This document shows, piece after piece, positions 6,262 through 61,855 of a stretch of 64,000 nucleotides of DNA. A program made the translations under genes and the position numbers. Below the pieces are notes generated by a model. The model was given only the letters and a program-made list of their open reading frames with translations. It was not told the origin of the DNA and did no database searches. Every line of letters begins with the position of its first letter. Positions within the stretch are counted from its first letter, which is position 1. Source of the DNA: Geothrix sp. 21YS21S-4 (GTDB lineage Bacteria; Acidobacteriota; Holophagae; Holophagales; Holophagaceae). The stretch covers positions 2,542,001 to 2,606,000 of the forward strand of contig NZ_CP132719.1 of NCBI RefSeq assembly GCF_030845995.1, in the 5' to 3' direction.

Positions 6262-7516
6262 ATCCAATCCGCTTCATGCGGCGAAGCTCCGGGACCTTCC
6301 AGGCAGTGGCGCCCACGACGAGCAGGGTCATGCAGCCGCCGAAGATCACCGAGGGCACCAGCCCCAGCAGCCGCGCCATGAGCCCGCTCTCGAAGGCGCC
6401 GATCTCGTTGCTGGAACCGATGAACACCTGGTTCACCGCCGACACGCGGCCCAGCATATGGTCCGGCGTGAGCGTCTGCAGCAGCGTGGCCCGCAGCACC
6501 ACGCTGACGTTGTCCATGGCGCCGCTGACGGCCAGCACCGCGAGGCTCACCAGGAACGTCCGGCTGAGGGCGAAGGCGATCATGGCCGCGCCGAACCCCC
6601 CGACGCATAGCAGCAGCGTCCGGCCCGCGTGGCGCAGGGGCGGACGGTGGGCCAGGATGAAGCCCATCAGGACGGAGCCCGCGGCCGGGGCCGCGCGCAG
6701 CGTGCCGAGCCCGGCGGGACCCACCGCCAGGATTTCCTTCGCGAAGATGGGAAGCACCGCCACCGCGCCGCCGAACAGCACGGCGAAGAGGTCTAGGCTG
6801 ATGGCGCCCAGCAGCAGGCGGCGGGAGAACACGAAGCGGAGCCCTTCGGCCAGGCTCGCGAACACCGATCCGCTCTTGGGAGCCACGGGCGTCGGCGTGT
6901 ACCGGATGGACAGCAGCCCCAGCAGACCGCCGGCCATCAGGATCATCACCACGAAATGCGCCGCCACGGGGCCGCGCCAGGCGTAGATCAGCCCGCCCAG
7001 CGCGGGTCCCAGCACCATCCCCGAGTGGAAGATGGCCACGCGCCAGGTGGAGCCGTTGGCGTAGAGCTGCTTGGGCACCAGATCCGTTCCCAGGGCCATG
7101 TTGGCGGGCCGGTAGAAGGCGCGGACCACGCCGGTCAGGAAGATGATCCCGTAGATGGGCCACACGGCCCGGGCCAAAGGACCGGTGTGGAAGTACCAAC
7201 TGAAGCTCCACAGGAGGAACGAGCAGAAGGCCAGGCCCAAGGTGGTGGCGCCGCAGATCCGCAGCCGGTTCAGCCGGTCGGCGGCGTAGCCCCCGAACAG
7301 CGCCAGGCAGAGAAAGGGCAGCGCCTCGGAGAGTCCCACCAAGCCGAGCGCCAGGGGATCCCCCGTGCGGGCATAGACCTGCCAACCCACCACCACGCCC
7401 TGCACCTGAAGCCCCAGGGTCACGAGGCCCATGGAGAGCACGAAGCCCCGGTAACTGGGGCTTCGGAGGGCGGCGTAGGGATCGTGCGGAAGGTCCTCTC
7501 TCGGTTCCGCGCTCAC
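6260..7516 (-). CDS. MFS transporter, enterobactin exporter (EntS)-like
   Basis: A 418-residue protein with about 12 hydrophobic segments. The MFS signature between helices 2 and 3 reads GGYAADRLNR, and a second FFMGF-like half follows the middle loop near residue 200. It belongs to the MFS_3 type that includes EntS; the substrate is unknown. The frame is open further upstream, but that part lies in a duplicated 122-bp repeat, so I take GTG at 7516 as the start. This GTG overlaps the TGA of the repeat's reading frame (GTGA), and the GAGG of CTGAGG, 5 nt upstream, is its ribosome-binding site. The gene has therefore apparently captured a relic of the permease tail as its translation signal. 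Confidence 0.85.
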   Translation of the reverse strand: MSAEPREDLPHDPYAALRSPSYRGFVLSMGLVTLGLQVQGVVVGWQVYARTGDPLALGLVGLSEALPFLCLALFGGYAADRLNRLRICGATTLGLAFCSFLLWSFSWYFHTGPLARAVWPIYGIIFLTGVVRAFYRPANMALGTDLVPKQLYANGSTWRVAIFHSGMVLGPALGGLIYAWRGPVAAHFVVMILMAGGLLGLLSIRYTPTPVAPKSGSVFASLAEGLRFVFSRRLLLGAISLDLFAVLFGGAVAVLPIFAKEILAVGPAGLGTLRAAPAAGSVLMGFILAHRPPLRHAGRTLLLCVGGFGAAMIAFALSRTFLVSLAVLAVSGAMDNVSVVLRATLLQTLTPDHMLGRVSAVNQVFIGSSNEIGAFESGLMARLLGLVPSVIFGGCMTLLVVGATAWKVPELRRMKRIG

Positions 7517-7635
7517 TCGTACCTCAGGGCGTCGATCACATCGCAACCGCCGGATCGCAGAGCAGGCTCCGGGGGAGCCTGCGGCGCGAGGCATCCGGCG
7601 AGGCGCGAATCAGGGGCCAGAATCGAAGCCTCCAT
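7513..7635 (-). other. micro-ORF in second copy of the 122-bp tandem repeat
   Basis: A 40-codon frame starts at the ATG at 7633-7635, which overlaps by one base the TGA of the preceding copy (TGATG). It ends DVIDALRYE and TGA, the same end as the MacB-like permease at 7757. It differs from the neighbouring copy at three amino acids and one silent site, so it does not look conserved as protein. It may be translated by coupling, but is more likely a repeat by-product. Confidence 0.35.
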
Positions 7636-7756
7636 CACTCGTACCTCAGGGCATCGATCACATCGCGACCGCCGGATCGCAGAGCAGGCTCCGGGGGAGC
7701 CTGCGGCGCGAGGCATCCGGCGAGGAGCGAATCAGGGACCAGAATCGAAGCCTCCA
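7513..7756 (-). repeat. two 122-bp tandem repeats carrying a REP-like hairpin and the permease tail
   Basis: Copies lie at 7513-7634 and 7635-7756 and differ at only a few bases. The first bases of a third unit (from 7757) are the true end of the permease gene. Each copy holds a nested palindrome. In the first, the outer stem is 7548-7554 with 7594-7600, and the inner 9-bp stem is 7562-7570 with 7574-7582 around a GGG loop. The same palindrome with compensating base changes occurs at 18454-18505. Confidence 0.9.
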
Positions 7757-7757
7757 T
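7635..7757 (-). other. micro-ORF in first copy of the 122-bp tandem repeat
   Basis: This 40-codon frame starts at the ATG overlapping the permease stop (TGATG at 7755-7759). It encodes MEASILVPDS at its start and DVIDALRYE at its end. The exact unit of 41 codons minus one shared base gives the 122-bp period. No ribosome-binding site other than the GAGG of the permease tail is needed for coupled translation. Function is unlikely to be at the protein level. Confidence 0.35.
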
Positions 7758-8974
7758 CACTCGTACCTCAGGGCATCGATGACATCCAGGTTCGCGGCCT
7801 TCACGGCGGGAAGGAAGCCCGCGGCCACGCCCACCACCCCCGAGAAGCCCAGCCCCAGGGCCACGGCCCAGGACTCGGTCACGGCGGGCACCTGGAACTT
7901 CTGCAGGATGAAGACCGCGGTGTACGCGAAGGCGATCCCGATGATGCCGCCCAGCAGCGACAGCACCACCGCCTCCACCAGGAACTGCCACAGGATGCTG
8001 CGCTGCGTTGCGCCTAGCGCGCGACGGATCCCGATCTCGCGGGTGCGCTCGGTGACGCTCACCAGCATGATGTTGGAGATCCCGATTCCGCCCACCACGA
8101 GGGAGATGCTGGCCGCCACGGCGAGGAGCGCGGTGAGGATGCCGGCCTGCTGGGTCTGCATCTGGACGATGTCGTCCTGCTTGCGGATCTGGAAGGGATT
8201 GTCGTCCTTGGGCGCCACCTTCATCCGCTGGCGGAGGAGAGCCGTGACTTCGGCTTCGGCCAGCTCCGCCTTGCCGTCCTGGGCGCTCACCATGATCCGC
8301 TGGATCTTGTCGCGGCCCATGATCTTGCGCATCACAGTGGTGTACGGGGCCACGATGAGGTCGTCCTGATCGCCGAACATTCCCGCGCCCTTCTTCTCCA
8401 GCACGCCCACCACCAGAAACGGGAGCGCACCCACGCGGACCGTGAGCCCGACCGGATCCTCGCCGTTGGGGAAGAGGTTGTCCTTCACCGTCTGGCCGAC
8501 GACGCAGACCTTGGCCATGCCGCGGACTTCCGCGTCGGTGAAGAAGCGCCCGCTCTCCATGTCCCAGCCGCGGATCTGGAGGAACTCCGGACCGGTTCCC
8601 TGGACCTGGGTGACGTAATTGCTGTTCTGGTAGATCACCGGGCGGGTGGTCTGCACCTGGGCCGTGGCCGAGACCACGCTGCTCTGGGCCAGCTCCTGCT
8701 GGATCAGCGGCGGATCGGTCTCCAGGAGAATGTCCGCGCTGCCGATGGCCATGGGACCGAAGCGATTGCCGCCGGCTCCCGGGAAGATGGTCAGCATGTT
8801 GGAGCCCATGTTCTCGATCAGGGCGAGGGAGGCCCGCTTGGAGCCCTCGCCGATCCCGATCATGGCGATCACCGCGCCCACGCCCACGATGATCCCCAGC
8901 ATGGTGAGGAAGGCCCGCATCTTGTTGCGGGTGATGGCGAAGAGGGCCAGCTTCAAGAATTCCAGCAGAGCCAT
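7757..8974 (-). CDS. MacB-like ABC transporter permease (no ATPase domain)
   Basis: A 405-residue inner-membrane protein. Helix 1 follows MALLEFLKLALFAITRNK. It is followed by TMLGIIVGVGAVIAMIGIGEG, a large periplasmic MacB core domain to about residue 250, and three C-terminal FtsX helices with VGGIGISNIMLVSVTERTRE and GIRRALGATQRSI. E. coli MacB carries its ATPase in the same chain, but here none is fused or adjacent. The adaptor gene lies upstream on the same strand. I chose ATG 8974, preceded by GGGGGTGG, over the longer frame because it matches the paralog at 61859. It probably exports peptides, lipids or drugs through a TolC-type channel. Confidence 0.9.
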   Translation of the reverse strand: MALLEFLKLALFAITRNKMRAFLTMLGIIVGVGAVIAMIGIGEGSKRASLALIENMGSNMLTIFPGAGGNRFGPMAIGSADILLETDPPLIQQELAQSSVVSATAQVQTTRPVIYQNSNYVTQVQGTGPEFLQIRGWDMESGRFFTDAEVRGMAKVCVVGQTVKDNLFPNGEDPVGLTVRVGALPFLVVGVLEKKGAGMFGDQDDLIVAPYTTVMRKIMGRDKIQRIMVSAQDGKAELAEAEVTALLRQRMKVAPKDDNPFQIRKQDDIVQMQTQQAGILTALLAVAASISLVVGGIGISNIMLVSVTERTREIGIRRALGATQRSILWQFLVEAVVLSLLGGIIGIAFAYTAVFILQKFQVPAVTESWAVALGLGFSGVVGVAAGFLPAVKAANLDVIDALRYE

Positions 8975-18226: not shown

Positions 18227-18597
18227 GGGCGGCTTCCCGGCAAGGCCACCCGCGGGGAGGCCCGACCCATCGAGCCTATCAGAGGCATCCCCTTCCGGAC
18301 ATGGAGGGAAAGAACCCCTCCGCCCCGATGCGACCTGGGTCACAGCCTCATCGGAAGCCCCCCGGAGAGGGCCTCGGCCCTTCGCTCCAATCCAAAGTCA
18401 TCCGCCGCGGAGAAAGCGCCTCCCCGCTTGGTTTCGATCCTGGACCTCCCGACCGCCGGGTGGCGCAGCAGAGCCCGGGGGGCTCTGCGAAGCCGGCCCC
18501 CGGCGAGGAGGGAATCACTCAGAGAGAAGGGAACCACCCTGAGCGGGCCTCCCCCCTTCGCTCCCATCCGAAGTCCTCCGGCGAGGACGGAATCACC
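18227..18597. repeat. gene-free region filled with degenerate repeats
   Basis: This 371-bp gap between glnS and nuoH holds no credible gene. It contains a REP-like hairpin (18454-18505). A phrase like CTTCGCTCCCATCCGAAGTC occurs twice in diverged form, at about 18387-18410 and 18550-18575. The phrase ending CCGGCGAGGAGGGAATCA also occurs twice, near 18500 and 18577. A stretch at 18424-18448 resembles the last codons of glnS. The promoter of nuoH must lie here, but I see no clear -35/-10 pair. Confidence 0.7.
18454..18505. repeat. REP-like nested hairpin
   Basis: The outer stem is 18454-18460 with 18499-18505. The inner 9-bp stem is 18468-18476 with 18480-18488, around a GGG loop. Spacing and flanks match the hairpins in the 122-bp repeats at 7513-7756, but four base pairs differ in both arms at once, so pairing is kept. 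Confidence 0.8.
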
Positions 18598-20307
<1,710 letters not shown>

Positions 20308-20360: not shown

Positions 20361-20466
20361 TTTGGAACCGCGAAAAGCATGAAAGCTCCCCCGCGGATTG
20401 GGTCGCCCAGCGTCCCATTTCGCGTGCCCGAAGGGCTTTCGCGTTTTTCGCGGTTCCCTGTTTTTC
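20361..20466. repeat. long-hairpin repeat, family B copy 2
   Basis: The left arm GGAACCGCGAAAAGCATGAA, from about 20364, pairs with the right arm CGCGTTTTTCGCGGTTCC ending at 20457, with a loop of about 50 nt. The arms consist of short near-repeats of CGCGAAAG. A related copy lies at 32358-32514. It sits between proC and glnS, both on the minus strand. Confidence 0.75.
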
Positions 20467-29160: not shown

Positions 29161-31335
29161 ATGCGCCTTCCGGCCCTCGCCCTCTTGTGCCTTCCCGCCC
29201 TAGCCGCCCAGCCGAACCCACCTCACGTGGCGATCCCCCGGCTGGCGCAGGCGCCTTCCATGGCCTGGGACGCGGACCTCTCGACCTGGGGCGAGGCGCG
29301 GGTGATCACCGAATTCGGGATGATGATGCCCGACGACAAGGGCAGGAACCGCTGGCCCACCACCGTCCACGTGGGCTGGGGGCCGGATGCCCTCTACGTC
29401 GCGGTGGAAGCGGGCGATCCCGAGCCGTCGAAGATCCACGCCGCCCGCCACATGCGGGACACCAACCAGGGCGACTTCGACTTCGTGGGCGTGGACCTGG
29501 ATCCCTCCGGCAAGGGCCAGAGCATCCTCCGGTTCTTCGTGACCCCGCTCGGGGGGCAGATCGACGAGATCGCCACGGACACTACCGGCGAGAACGCCTC
29601 CTACGACTGCCTGTGGGATTCCACCGGCGTCCGCACGGCGGACGGCTACGTGGTCAAGATCCGCATCCCCTATAGCAGCCTCCGCCGGATGCCGGGGGAC
29701 TGGGCCATGCGCTTCCTCCGGATCATCCCGCGGGAGCGCCGCTACGGCATCGCCTGGCCGGCCATGAGCAAGGACGTGCAGTGCGACATCTGCCAGATGG
29801 CCCGCGTCTCCGGCGCGCCCGTGGACAAGCCGGGCTCGCCCCTCCTGCTCCTGCCCATCGCCACCTTCAGCCGGACCCAGTCCCTGGAGAAGGATCCGAG
29901 CGCCTCGCCCCAGTCCCGGGCCCGGCTCGGACTCGACGTGCGCTACGCCACCACCGCCCTCACCTTCGAGGGCACCTACCGGCCCGACTTCGCCACGGCG
30001 GACGCCGATGTGGATCCGCTCCAGATCAACAGCCGCTTCAGGGTGCTCTACCCGGAGCGGCGGCCCTTCTTCCTCGAAGGGATGGACCTGCTGTCGCCGC
30101 TGTCGGCCCAGCGCCAGTTCTTCAGCCGCTCCATCCAGAGCCCGCTGTACGGCCTCAAGGCCTCCGGCCAGGGTTCCTTCGCCACCTGGACCGTGCTCCA
30201 TGCCCGGGACCAGGACGGGGGCCTGCTCCTGGGCGCCAATGGCGCCGCGGGCACCGAGGGCCTGGCCACCCGCGACACCGCCGCCGCCCTTCGCCTCCAA
30301 CTGGACCCGCGGGGGTCGGGCCTGTCCTTCCTGGGAACGGACAAACAGCTGGTGGGCGCCGGGGACGACCTCGGCGGCCGGAGCGGCGGCATCTACCTCG
30401 ACCAGTACCTGGGCTCCCAATTCCACTTCATCGGAAGCGCCGTGGGCACCACCTCCCACCTGCCCCAGGAGGACGGGACGGTGCGGTCCCAGCGCGGCAG
30501 CTCCACCTCCGCGGAACTGGACTGGACCACCCGCAACTGGGTCGCCTGGGCCGTCAGCCAGACCACCAGCCCCGATCTGATGCTGCTGTCGGGCTTCATC
30601 GACCTCCAGGGCTACCGCCGGGACATCGCCGCCTTCGGATGGCGCGACAACTGGAACACCGGCGGCCTCTCCTCCGCCAACGCCACCCTCCGCTGGAGCC
30701 GCCTCACGTGGTGGAACGGTGATCCCATGGAGCGGGTGGTCGGCCTCGACACTTGGCTGGAGACCGCGGGCCGCCTGAGCTTCTTCTTCAACTGGGACGC
30801 CGCGGGCCGCGTGTGGGGGGAGGACCGAGTCCGCTCCGTGGCTTCCCGCGCCCTCACGGTGGGCGGCAACTGGCGGCGCTACGCCCAGGCCCGCTTCGGG
30901 TGGAACGCCAGCCGAGGCCGGACGCTGGATCTGGAGTCGGGCGATCCGGCCAAGCTGAATTCCGCCCAGCTCTTCTTCTACGGCACCGTGGGGAGCGTCT
31001 CCTACAACCTGTCGGCCCTGCAATCCGTCCTGGACCGGGAGGAGGACAGCCGGCGCCTCATCCGCGCCCGGGAACTCACCGCCACGGGCAGTTGGCAGCT
31101 TCCCGCCTTCTTCTACGTGAAGACCCAGGCCTTCGCCGTGCGCTACGACGGCGCCCACGGCGAGGGCGTGGACAAGTTCCTGAAGACCTTCGTCGGCTGG
31201 CAGCCCAACGCCTTCACCAACGCCTACCTCGGCTGGTCCGGCCAGCGCCGCCGCGACCCCGCGGCCCTCCTCGCCTCCGAGCGGATGGTAGAGCGCGGCC
31301 TCTTCGCCAAGCTGGCCTACGCCATGCAGTTCTGA
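29161..31335 (+). CDS. DUF5916 outer-membrane protein with family-9-like carbohydrate-binding domain
   Basis: A 724-residue secreted protein with a signal peptide ending near LAAQ. Residues about 35-210 look like a carbohydrate-binding module of family 9 (WDADLSTWGEARVITEF, then GDFDFVGVDLDPSGKGQ), followed by the DUF5916 beta-rich region with FATADADVDPLQINSRFR and ERRPFFLEGMDL. The chain ends AYAMQF, where a terminal aromatic residue is the sorting signal of outer-membrane barrels. Function is unknown. The terminal codons are duplicated about 160 bp downstream. Confidence 0.87.
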   Translation: MRLPALALLCLPALAAQPNPPHVAIPRLAQAPSMAWDADLSTWGEARVITEFGMMMPDDKGRNRWPTTVHVGWGPDALYVAVEAGDPEPSKIHAARHMRDTNQGDFDFVGVDLDPSGKGQSILRFFVTPLGGQIDEIATDTTGENASYDCLWDSTGVRTADGYVVKIRIPYSSLRRMPGDWAMRFLRIIPRERRYGIAWPAMSKDVQCDICQMARVSGAPVDKPGSPLLLLPIATFSRTQSLEKDPSASPQSRARLGLDVRYATTALTFEGTYRPDFATADADVDPLQINSRFRVLYPERRPFFLEGMDLLSPLSAQRQFFSRSIQSPLYGLKASGQGSFATWTVLHARDQDGGLLLGANGAAGTEGLATRDTAAALRLQLDPRGSGLSFLGTDKQLVGAGDDLGGRSGGIYLDQYLGSQFHFIGSAVGTTSHLPQEDGTVRSQRGSSTSAELDWTTRNWVAWAVSQTTSPDLMLLSGFIDLQGYRRDIAAFGWRDNWNTGGLSSANATLRWSRLTWWNGDPMERVVGLDTWLETAGRLSFFFNWDAAGRVWGEDRVRSVASRALTVGGNWRRYAQARFGWNASRGRTLDLESGDPAKLNSAQLFFYGTVGSVSYNLSALQSVLDREEDSRRLIRARELTATGSWQLPAFFYVKTQAFAVRYDGAHGEGVDKFLKTFVGWQPNAFTNAYLGWSGQRRRDPAALLASERMVERGLFAKLAYAMQF

Positions 31336-31359
31336 GGCGCGGTCGGGTTCGGGACGCTC

Positions 31360-31466
31360 AAAGAAAGAAACGCGGAGGAAAACGGAAGAGGGGAGGAGAG
31401 CGGAGAAGAACAGTGAATCCCTCCGCTTTCCTCCGCCGCTCCGCGCTCCTCCGCTTTCAAAACGCT
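31360..31466. repeat. long-hairpin repeat, family C
   Basis: The left arm (31360-31406) is built of purine-rich near-repeats such as GCGGAGGA and GGAGAGCGGAG. The right arm (31420-31466) is its imperfect complement. They enclose a loop of about 13 nt, which would make a stem of about 45 bp with mismatches. It lies just after the DUF5916 stop. Confidence 0.7.
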
Positions 31467-31491
31467 TTCCGAGAAACGCCACAGCCCCGAA

Positions 31492-31515
31492 CGGGCCTAC
31501 GCGATTCAGTTCTGA
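31492..31515 (+). pseudogene. duplicated 3' tail of the DUF5916 gene
   Basis: This short stretch reads GCCTACGCGATTCAGTTCTGA near its end and encodes AYAIQF and a stop. The real gene ends GCCTACGCCATGCAGTTCTGA (AYAMQF). The match covers the outer-membrane sorting signal. It lies between hairpin C and repeat A1, so the gene end occurs twice on either side of hairpin C. Confidence 0.6.
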
Positions 31516-31650
31516 TGTCGCTTTACATTCAAAGATAAGGAGCACCGCCCAGACGCCAAAGAAGACAAAAAAAGCTCCTTTTGCTTTTCTTGGCGCCCTT
31601 GCCGTCTTGGCAGTGGAAAGAGCCTGGGGTCTTGCTCTCGCATTCCTTTC
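31513..31650. repeat. repeat A copy 1 (diverged)
   Basis: It starts TGATGTCGCTTTACATTCAAAG and continues into AGCACCGCCCAGACGCC, then CTTTTCTTGGCGCCC and GTCTTGGCAGTG, the same order of blocks as copies A2-A4 with more mismatches. The first TGA is the stop of the gene-tail relic before it. Confidence 0.65.
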
Positions 31651-31689
31651 CCCCGAAAGGCCGCGTCCATGGACCGCTACACTGGTCCG

Positions 31690-32358
31690 ATGCTCGAACT
31701 CCGCGCCATCACCCGCGCCTACGAACTGGGCGGCGAGCGCGCCGGCGTGTTCGGCGTGTCGCTGGGCGTGCCCAAGGGCTGCCTGGCGGTGCTCGCGGGC
31801 CCCAGCGGCAGCGGGAAGACCACCCTCCTCCAGATCGCCGGGCTCCTGGACGCGCCGGACGAGGGGACGGTCCTGCTGGATGGACAGGAGATGTCCAGTC
31901 TTTCCGAGCGGGAGCGCTGCCGGCTCCGGCTGCGCCGCCTCGGCTTCGTGTTCCAGGCATTCAACCTGGTGCCCGTTCTCTCCGCGCTGGAGAACGTGAT
32001 GCTCCCCCTCCAGCTCCAGGGCGTCGCCGATGACGAGGCGCGCGAGCGGGCGGAAGGGGCCCTGGCCCGCGTGGGCCTCGCCGACCGCTGCCACCACCGC
32101 CCCGGCCAGCTCAGCGGCGGCCAGCAGCAGCGCGCCGCCATCGCCCGGGCCCTCGTTCCCAATCCCCTCCTGGTGCTGGCCGACGAGCCCACCGCCAACC
32201 TGGACCACGCCCACGGCGGCCCCCTCATGGACCTGATGGCCGACCTCGCCGCGGAGCGCGGCACCTCGTTCCTCGTGGCCAGCCACGACCCCGCCGTCAT
32301 CGCCCGCGCCCACCGCGTCTTCCGCCTCGCCGACGGCCGGCTGGTGGAGGAACCATGA
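31690..32358 (+). CDS. ABC transporter ATP-binding protein, LolD/MacB-ATPase type
   Basis: A 222-residue ATPase with Walker A GPSGSGKTT near residue 38, the LolD/FtsE-like segment FVFQAFNLVPVLSALENV, the signature LSGGQQQRAAIARAL, Walker B LVLADEPTANLD and the switch His in ASHD. I chose ATG 31690. The permease that follows is 175 bp downstream, separated by a hairpin repeat. The pair probably handles lipoproteins or a related export task at the inner membrane. Walker B is followed by DHAHGG, where most members have SxTG, so the D-loop region is unusual. Confidence 0.9.
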   Translation: MLELRAITRAYELGGERAGVFGVSLGVPKGCLAVLAGPSGSGKTTLLQIAGLLDAPDEGTVLLDGQEMSSLSERERCRLRLRRLGFVFQAFNLVPVLSALENVMLPLQLQGVADDEARERAEGALARVGLADRCHHRPGQLSGGQQQRAAIARALVPNPLLVLADEPTANLDHAHGGPLMDLMADLAAERGTSFLVASHDPAVIARAHRVFRLADGRLVEEP

Positions 32359-32514
32359 AAAAGGCCCTGGAACCGCGAAAGGCGCGAATGGGCGCGAAAG
32401 AAGGAATGACGGTGGTCTTCTCGGCCAGCTGCTCCAGTCCGAACGGAACCGGGAAATCAGAGACGCCGGTCCTTCTTTCGCGGGCCCGCAGGGCCTTTCG
32501 CGCTTTTCGCGGTT
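32358..32514. repeat. long-hairpin repeat, family B copy 1
   Basis: The left arm (about 32370-32405) contains AACCGCGAAAGGCGCGAA; the right arm (about 32470-32514) contains TTTCGCGCTTTTCGCGGTT. The loop between them is about 65 nt. It lies between the ATPase and permease genes of one transporter. Some of the arm is built of CGCGAAAG near-repeats. Confidence 0.75.
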
Positions 32515-33778: not shown

Positions 33779-33926
33779 TATCACTTTGCATTCAAAGAAT
33801 AAGGATCACCACCAAGACGCGAAGGGCACCAAGAACCACATCCCCAGTGGGCAGAGCTTTTCTTGGTGCCTTGGTGTCTTGGTGGTGAAAAGAAAAACCT
33901 TGGGTCTTGATCGCCTGTTGGTATGA
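33776..33926. repeat. repeat A copy 2
   Basis: It starts at the permease stop (TGATATCACTTTGCATTC) and ends near TTGGTATGA. The arms 33807-33834 and 33860-33887 pair over about 28 bp and are built of CACCAAGA-type units. Flanks and loop match copy A4 (loop core CATCCCCAGTGG). It fills most of the gap before pgpA. Confidence 0.85.
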
Positions 33927-41725: not shown

Positions 41726-41872
41726 TCATACCCCTTTGCATTCAAAGAATAAGGATCACCACCAAGACGCCAAGGGCACCAAGAAAAGCCTCCGCAACGG
41801 GTGGGGCTTTTCTTGGTGCCTTCGTGTCTTGGTGGTGAAAAGAAAATCTTGGTCTTGATCGCCTGTGAGGAT
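41726..41872. repeat. repeat A copy 3
   Basis: It starts TCATACCCCTTTGCATTC, 29 nt after the stop of the WYL gene. The arms 41757-41790 and 41805-41837 pair almost perfectly over about 33 bp (GACGCCAAGGGCACCAAGAA on the left). It ends in GTCTTGATCGCCTG. It lies between convergent genes and could also act as a terminator. Confidence 0.85.
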
Positions 41873-61727: not shown

Positions 61728-61855
61728 TACCCATGGGCGATCAAGACCCCAATTTTTTTCTCACCACCAAGATCCCAAGAAAAGCTATATCCACTGGGGA
61801 TGCGGTTCTTGGCGTCTTGGTGGTGAGCTTATTTTTTGAATGCAAAGCGGTATGA
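61725..61855. repeat. repeat A copy 4 (opposite orientation)
   Basis: On the plus strand it runs from TGATACCC at the stop of the flavin-reductase gene to GGTATGAA, three bases short of the stop of the convergent permease. The arms 61762-61784 and 61806-61825 pair with some mismatches. Read on the minus strand it matches A2 closely (TTTGCATTCAAA, CATCCCCAGTGG, TCTTGATCGCC). The whole gap between the two genes is the element. Confidence 0.85.

Follow-up and report, generated by a model that had tools for sequence, protein, structure and literature searches.

The 3' end of the DUF5916 gene

The window, a stretch of 64,000 nucleotides from Geothrix sp. 21YS21S-4, is part of one contig of 3.08 Mb. 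Coordinates refer to the window unless stated otherwise. The following features lie at and behind the 3' end of its DUF5916 gene.

29161-31335, plus strand: DUF5916 gene, an open reading frame of 724 aa that ends in AYAMQF and a stop codon (Pfam PF19313, E 6e-08)
31314-31335, plus strand: tail 1, GGCCTACGCCATGCAGTTCTGA, the last six codons and the stop of this gene with one preceding base
31369-31457, no strand: hairpin C, a member of a dispersed family, with arms at 31369-31405 and 31421-31457
31494-31515, plus strand: tail 2, GGCCTACGCGATTCAGTTCTGA, reading AYAIQF and a stop codon, identical to tail 1 at 20 of 22 positions
31544-31616, no strand: hairpin D, CCAGACGCCAAAG...CTTGGCGCCCTTGCCGTCTTGG, of a second family, 28 nt past tail 2 (recognized from its sequence; family copies were matched by query 222-271 and query 323-420)
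31676-31692, plus strand: GCTACACTGG and the ATG of the next gene, an ABC ATPase (Pfam ABC_tran)

The end of the DUF5916 gene thus recurs on the far side of hairpin C, as the sequence-only reading had claimed, at a spacing of exactly 180 bp. A pattern that covers both tails, with two free positions and up to three mismatches allowed, matched the window twice, while 0.01 matches were expected from shuffles. A third site in the 3.08 Mb genome fits the pattern, but only with 3 mismatches. The two differences between the tails both fall on third codon positions: GCC>GCG is silent, and ATG>ATT exchanges Met for Ile. The repeat covers only 22 nt, and beyond the stop codon no similarity was seen. When the window was scanned for repeats 40-500 nt apart with no anchoring, the pair obtained a score of 16 and ranked sixth to eighth, in a tie with two others. 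The distinctive feature of the pair is its anchoring on the stop codon of a gene.

The stretch 31336-31515 has a fold z-score of -2.57. A search of the window with Rfam returned tRNA and nothing else. More hairpins that look intergenic were seen at 20364-20457, 32371-32514, 33806-33888, 41756-41838 and 61760-61827; these five belong to at least two other dispersed types, a ACCACCAAGACGCCAAG type and a CGCGAAAAACGCG type.

The DUF5916 gene has matches with an E-value of 1e-100 or lower in 28 of the 47 genomes of the genus, the window genome included, and we compared its 3' end in the other 27. In 18 of these relatives the matched part of the ABC-transporter gene starts 26-44 nt past the DUF5916 stop, two (G006 and G018) carry a C hairpin between both genes, and four have 666-816 nt in this place. 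For the remaining three the ABC gene was not found in the stretch examined (G013, G024 and G053, the last of which ends with its contig). No second tail was detected in any of the 27. The best scores of a gene end against its own downstream DNA were 2-6, compared with 16 in the window genome; this scoring covered just 232 nt in G053 and 783 nt in G021. G024 (L060, G024:C232) contains a tandem pair of DUF5916 genes, the proteins being 75% and 72% identical to that of the window; the first copy ends in KVAYAIQF, and the ABC gene does not follow the pair. It is the only one of the 28 genomes with tandem copies. In G011 (L101, G011:C83) the body of the gene is lost, and short remnants of its start together with about its last 40 nt remain before the ABC gene.

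Hairpin C occurs in about 20 other copies in the window genome, among 40 of 73 candidates scored. We compared flanks of 130 nt on each side at 36 hairpin-C loci, namely the reported locus, 13 others from the same genome, 20 from relatives and those of G006 and G018; since L006 and L020 are the same copy, 35 of these are distinct. A repeated gene tail was present at the reported locus only. The fact that no other locus among those compared has one indicates that hairpin C does not habitually duplicate gene tails. Four entries (L002, L006, L020 and L260) showed repeats that resemble further hairpin units. At the DUF5916 locus the two tails are separated from the arms of the hairpin by 33 and 36 nt. 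G006 and G018 have the hairpin just behind the DUF5916 gene and no second tail, the very combination that the sequence-only reading had expected to speak against it. Their hairpins are probably insertions independent of that in the window genome, because the nearer relatives G008 and G021 (81% and 79% identity of the DUF5916 protein to that of the window genome, compared with 74% in G006 and 73% in G018) have no hairpin here. With one positive among 36 loci we rejected hairpin C as the maker of the tail copy, and these two counterexamples also speak against it; the hairpin probably did not make the copy.

Repeated gene tails at other genes of Geothrix

We scored the last codons and the stop of genes against the next 400 nt, with a cut-off of 13 or more. 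Four of 198 gene ends qualified in 264 kb of the window genome, two of 50 in the window, which had been selected because of its repeated tails, and two of 148 in random stretches. A second sample of the same genome gave one in 154. Outside the window this amounts to 3 of 302 gene ends (about 1%). Tails that were scored against the downstream DNA of other genes gave no positive in either sample (0/1927 and 0/1482, together 0/3409). A first control run had yielded 1/1968 before pairs of neighbouring genes were dropped; the later runs exclude pairs within 3 kb. No repeated tail was found in small samples of G045 (0/72), G047 (0/64), G030 (0/60), G020 (0/135) and E. coli K-12 (0/171, the genes being chosen by length only); G027, for which no genes were predicted, is outside this count. 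G020 and G047 do carry tail repeats elsewhere in their genomes, despite the absence of positives from the random stretches. At G000:C1:2816100 (L308) a small hairpin, CGCGTATCGCCGCAGGCGATACCGA, stands between two identical copies of the last 40 nt of a gene. Followed by eye, this repeat continues for about 35 nt after the stop, where it shows two differences; it is the cleanest recent case that we have seen.

The other clear case that the sequence-only reading had counted in the window is confirmed. It lies at the end of a permease gene and involves a different hairpin, B, which occurs at two places in the window.

7513-7786, minus strand: tail of a MacB/FtsX permease gene in three copies around two copies of hairpin B, with a unit of 122 bp
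18361-18620, minus strand: end of a glnS-like gene, followed by hairpin B and a decayed copy of the tail

In the first of these hairpin B sits in a block of 92 nt, which is present twice. The second also contains a longer imperfect repeat of the flank. Apart from the permease site, three sites of hairpin B in the window genome, among the matches listed, stand behind genes which we take to be elbB-like, HPPD-like and glnS-like, the last being the site at 18361-18620; second tails are clear behind the first two and decayed behind the glnS-like gene. An additional B-like sequence is located at position 1661663 of the genome. B-like sequences occur in at least 43 of the 47 genomes of the genus. 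A piece of 18 bases of hairpin B matched 31 stretches in public genomes, of which seven are named Geothrix or Holophagaceae, including G. rubra, G. limicola and Geothrix sp. SG200; the others come from various other phyla and may have matched by chance.

At 24 of 47 chosen loci of hairpin B a repeat of the upstream flank, with a score of 14 or more, starts no further than 3 nt from the right end of the hairpin. Forty of these loci came from a best-first list, which is not a random sample, and seven were others; several represent the same gene in different genomes, and one (L207), an artefact of a contig edge, was scored negative. Twenty of the 24 positives score above 19.4, the 95th percentile in a control of 632 mismatched pairs, which itself contains pairs of the same gene. 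Repeat and spacer, added up from the data of the loci, extend over about 28-106 nt.

Comparison between genomes revealed filled and empty versions of the same sites. At the end of the permease gene four other genomes (G050, G022, G056 and G048) have a B hairpin between two tails. The site is empty, the tail leading directly to the next gene, in most of the other genomes shown, including G010 and G020. G010 is near to G050, with a divergence of 0.065 over the body of the permease gene, and G020 is the closest genome to G048 in the HPPD-like gene, at 0.903 identity. Filled and empty sites are found in near relatives, in G050 versus G010, in G048 versus G020 and in G002 versus G045 and G044. At the end of the HPPD-like gene different genomes contain several different inserts, most of which are then followed by a copy of the tail. 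This gene end (L218-L247) is a hot spot, with at least four kinds of insert recognized by eye across species; many of the placements of inserts at the HPPD-like and etfA genes rest on reading sequences by eye.

In four genomes (G018, G020, G050 and G048) the tails of one genome are identical over 55-75 nt, whereas several differences separate them from the nearest other genomes. Such pairs look like long target duplications of variable length, and their identity would fit either fresh jumps or recent conversion. The hairpins themselves are more alike between genomes at the same gene (mean identity 0.91, 54 pairs) than within a genome at different genes (0.79, 13 pairs), and at the HPPD-like gene near-identical hairpins precede unrelated downstream DNA. 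Both observations fit insertions that were inherited or transferred at their locus better than they fit a new jump in every case. The idea that such repeats recall a target-site duplication in which the stop codon is kept has found support at several other gene ends of Geothrix, best in the hairpin-B family, and none at hairpin C. The outermost bases of hairpin B vary by locus and are often complementary (TCGC/GCGA, TCCC/GGGA, GGGC/GCCC, AGGC/GCCT). To judge by eye this suggests selection for a paired foot, which some copies do not fit.

Silent differences and mosaic tails

A plain target duplication is free sequence from its birth, so that most later changes in it would alter codons. The data do not follow this expectation. 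At 20 loci of hairpin B the tails differ by 50 silent and 13 altered codons; of 24 loci taken, four gave no pair, and the 20 include nine from the HPPD-like gene, three from the permease gene and one (L201), the frame of which is probably wrong, kept in the totals. Seven pairs from the window genome gave 25 silent versus 8 altered codons, and in 20000 neutral simulations the number of altered codons was never so low. This set includes the DUF5916 pair and two pairs with inserts other than B (889.0k and 2809.6k). The identical pair at 2816100, the glnS-like copy, which is decayed, and the middle copies in the permease and elbB-like arrays are not part of it. Decayed second tails exist in G017, G056 and G057 as well as in the glnS-like case of the window genome, and none of them is among the seven pairs. 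Because the differences are mostly silent, many diverged tails separated while both were coding, and a plain target duplication was rejected for the diverged pairs.

A gene which we take to be etfA gives a view of how tails change. G000, G010, G041, G001 and G053 share the insert as well as the base with which the second tail begins. In G013 and G048 the same insert begins, and a second tail was not found in the stretch examined, which in G048 reaches a contig edge. The second tails of G010 and G053 equal the first tail of their own genome over 57 nt and then continue with GGTATTGG, as does the second tail of G041 (for G010 the count of positions was used here, as its codon count was out of frame). 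Such mosaics point to an older insertion, common to these genomes, in which the first tail has converted the second. G041 has 12 differences between its two tails, every one of them silent. The first tail has 8 differences from the empty relative G015 and the second has 12, while toward G042 the second tail has 8 and the first 10.

Excess divergence of the tails, which would be expected if tails were imported, was seen in some sister pairs at the HPPD-like gene. The permease gene showed none, with a mean of 0.120 in pairs with one filled site versus 0.132 in empty pairs, and excess divergence was rejected as a sign of import.

Origin of the second DUF5916 tail

The reading that we prefer, with a probability of about one half, is that tail 2 is a second end of the DUF5916 gene, displaced or duplicated, and that it belongs to a general class of tail-insert-tail structures in Geothrix. 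Foreign or duplicated DNA would have entered at the 3' end of the gene and left tail 2 behind. In this class a piece of DNA, usually a hairpin, would join a gene end in such a way that it has on either side about 20-100 nt which extend back over the stop codon. Of these two copies the upstream one would then serve as the working gene end and the downstream one would be free. Later, conversion could homogenise the copies, or recombination could swap in alleles of other species; such conversion or replacement would explain that many tail copies stay coding-like. By inference the DUF5916 pair arose by this route; tail 2 would be an older end of the gene or an allelic one, and hairpin C a separate arrival. 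For a displaced gene end we count the repeat beyond chance, the repeated tails at about 1% of random gene ends, the identical repeat at 2816100, the 24 of 47 loci of hairpin B, the filled and empty sites, the mostly silent differences in the seven pairs, the mosaic tails of etfA and the fact that the changes fall on third positions only. Against it count the 34 of 35 distinct hairpin-C loci that are free of gene tails, the small length of the repeat (22 nt), its absence from all 27 relatives, the negative samples from three other genomes (0/72, 0/64 and 0/135) and the permease tails with no excess divergence.

The chief rival, to which we assign about one quarter, is that tail 2 is the remnant of a tandem DUF5916 gene, which would have arisen by duplication, diverged from the first copy while both were coding and then been deleted except for its last codons. 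G024 has a tandem pair, the first copy of which shares the ending AYAIQF with tail 2, and G011 has kept just the extremities of a lost gene. Differences at third positions would likewise fit two coding copies. On the other side, tandem copies occur in one of 28 genomes only, no other remnant of a second copy was seen by eye between the tails, and the repeated tails at unrelated genes need no tandem copy. We prefer the general class.

It is improbable that tail 2 was imported from another species of Geothrix, by a recombination at the gene end in which one arm was homologous and the other was not. The mostly silent differences at several loci agree with such an import, and so does the first etfA tail of G041, which is nearer to the empty G015 than the second. 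However, no tail with the two changes of tail 2 was seen among those of the 27 relatives, and it is the second etfA tail that is nearer to G042. Equally improbable is that hairpin C is a mobile element which duplicated 22 bp of its target on insertion, in line with the target-site duplication of which the sequence-only reading was reminded; the repeat does flank the hairpin, but it stands 33 and 36 nt off the arms, which may not be the ends of the element, is unique among the C loci compared and is missing behind the same gene in G006 and G018. Outer-membrane proteins often end in ...Y..QF, and other repeats in the window score equally in the unanchored scan, but chance or a convergence of such endings is very improbable in view of the expectation of 0.01 in shuffles, the three mismatches of the third genomic site and the control of 0/1927.

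Known systems provide partial parallels. Integrative elements that use a gene 3' end as attachment site leave an intact gene end on one side and displace the original end to the other. The Geothrix structures have the same arrangement, but the 158 nt between tail 1 and tail 2 leave too little space for an integrase gene or cargo, and many different genes are used in Geothrix. A reverse-transcribed, SINE-like insertion was rejected, as the window genome has no match to PF00078.

REP and BIME sequences of the GTAG and CGTC families are dispersed short palindromes near gene 3' ends, and clusters of REP can occur as tandem repeats that include adjoining DNA of varying length (PMC3733652). The Geothrix hairpins are similar in being short, dispersed and palindromic and in lying by gene 3' ends; they differ from REP in that neither hairpin B nor hairpin C has, on inspection, a GTAG or CGTC foot, and in that the one Y1 transposase element examined, a kind of gene which in REP with RAYT would be flanked by the repeat, is unrelated to them in sequence. 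The parts of that source cited here do not mention tails that go on evolving like coding sequence, as many of the Geothrix tails do. IS1549 and IS1634 produce target duplications of very variable length, 8-514 bp (PMC2266710), a trait shared by hairpin B with its direct repeats of about 28-106 nt. However, these are full insertion sequences with a transposase, while hairpin B has 72 nt and no gene. MITEs of prokaryotes (PMC10969869) are likewise small non-coding repeats with flanking direct repeats, but inspection showed no long terminal inverted repeats outside the Geothrix hairpin, and the direct repeats are of unusual length. Homology-facilitated illegitimate recombination (PMC3240628), with one homologous and one non-homologous junction, would give a tail-insert-tail structure with an imported tail; for the Geothrix tails we offer it as an analogy. 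A search of titles and the openings of abstracts returned no description of tail-hairpin-tail structures or of coding-like tail copies.

A more speculative extension, which we consider rather unlikely, is that the duplicated tail acts as the right homology arm of a mobile allele that is free of any transposase. Ordinary recombination could then carry a hairpin with its two tails from one Geothrix species to another, regardless of the DNA downstream of the gene, and conversion would keep both arms matched to the gene of the host. If the general class holds, gene ends would be favoured landing sites of tiny repeats, each marked by a copied stop region, and the age and direction of an event could be read from the silent changes between the tails and their own gene. 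The structures could also serve to test whether small palindromic repeats can spread between species through recombination alone. The lesson of the DUF5916 case is modest: the scar is real, and the hairpin C beside it was the wrong suspect.

An IS200-like Y1 element as the source of the hairpins was rejected, as the one element examined, the 661 bases common to two copies, matches hairpins B and C no better than shuffles. Matches to the Y1 transposase (Y1_Tnp), five in number and of equal score, were found at positions 1121467, 1771272, 2192230, 2445343 and 2777555 of G000:C1. Two of these elements share 661 identical bases, which makes recent activity likely.
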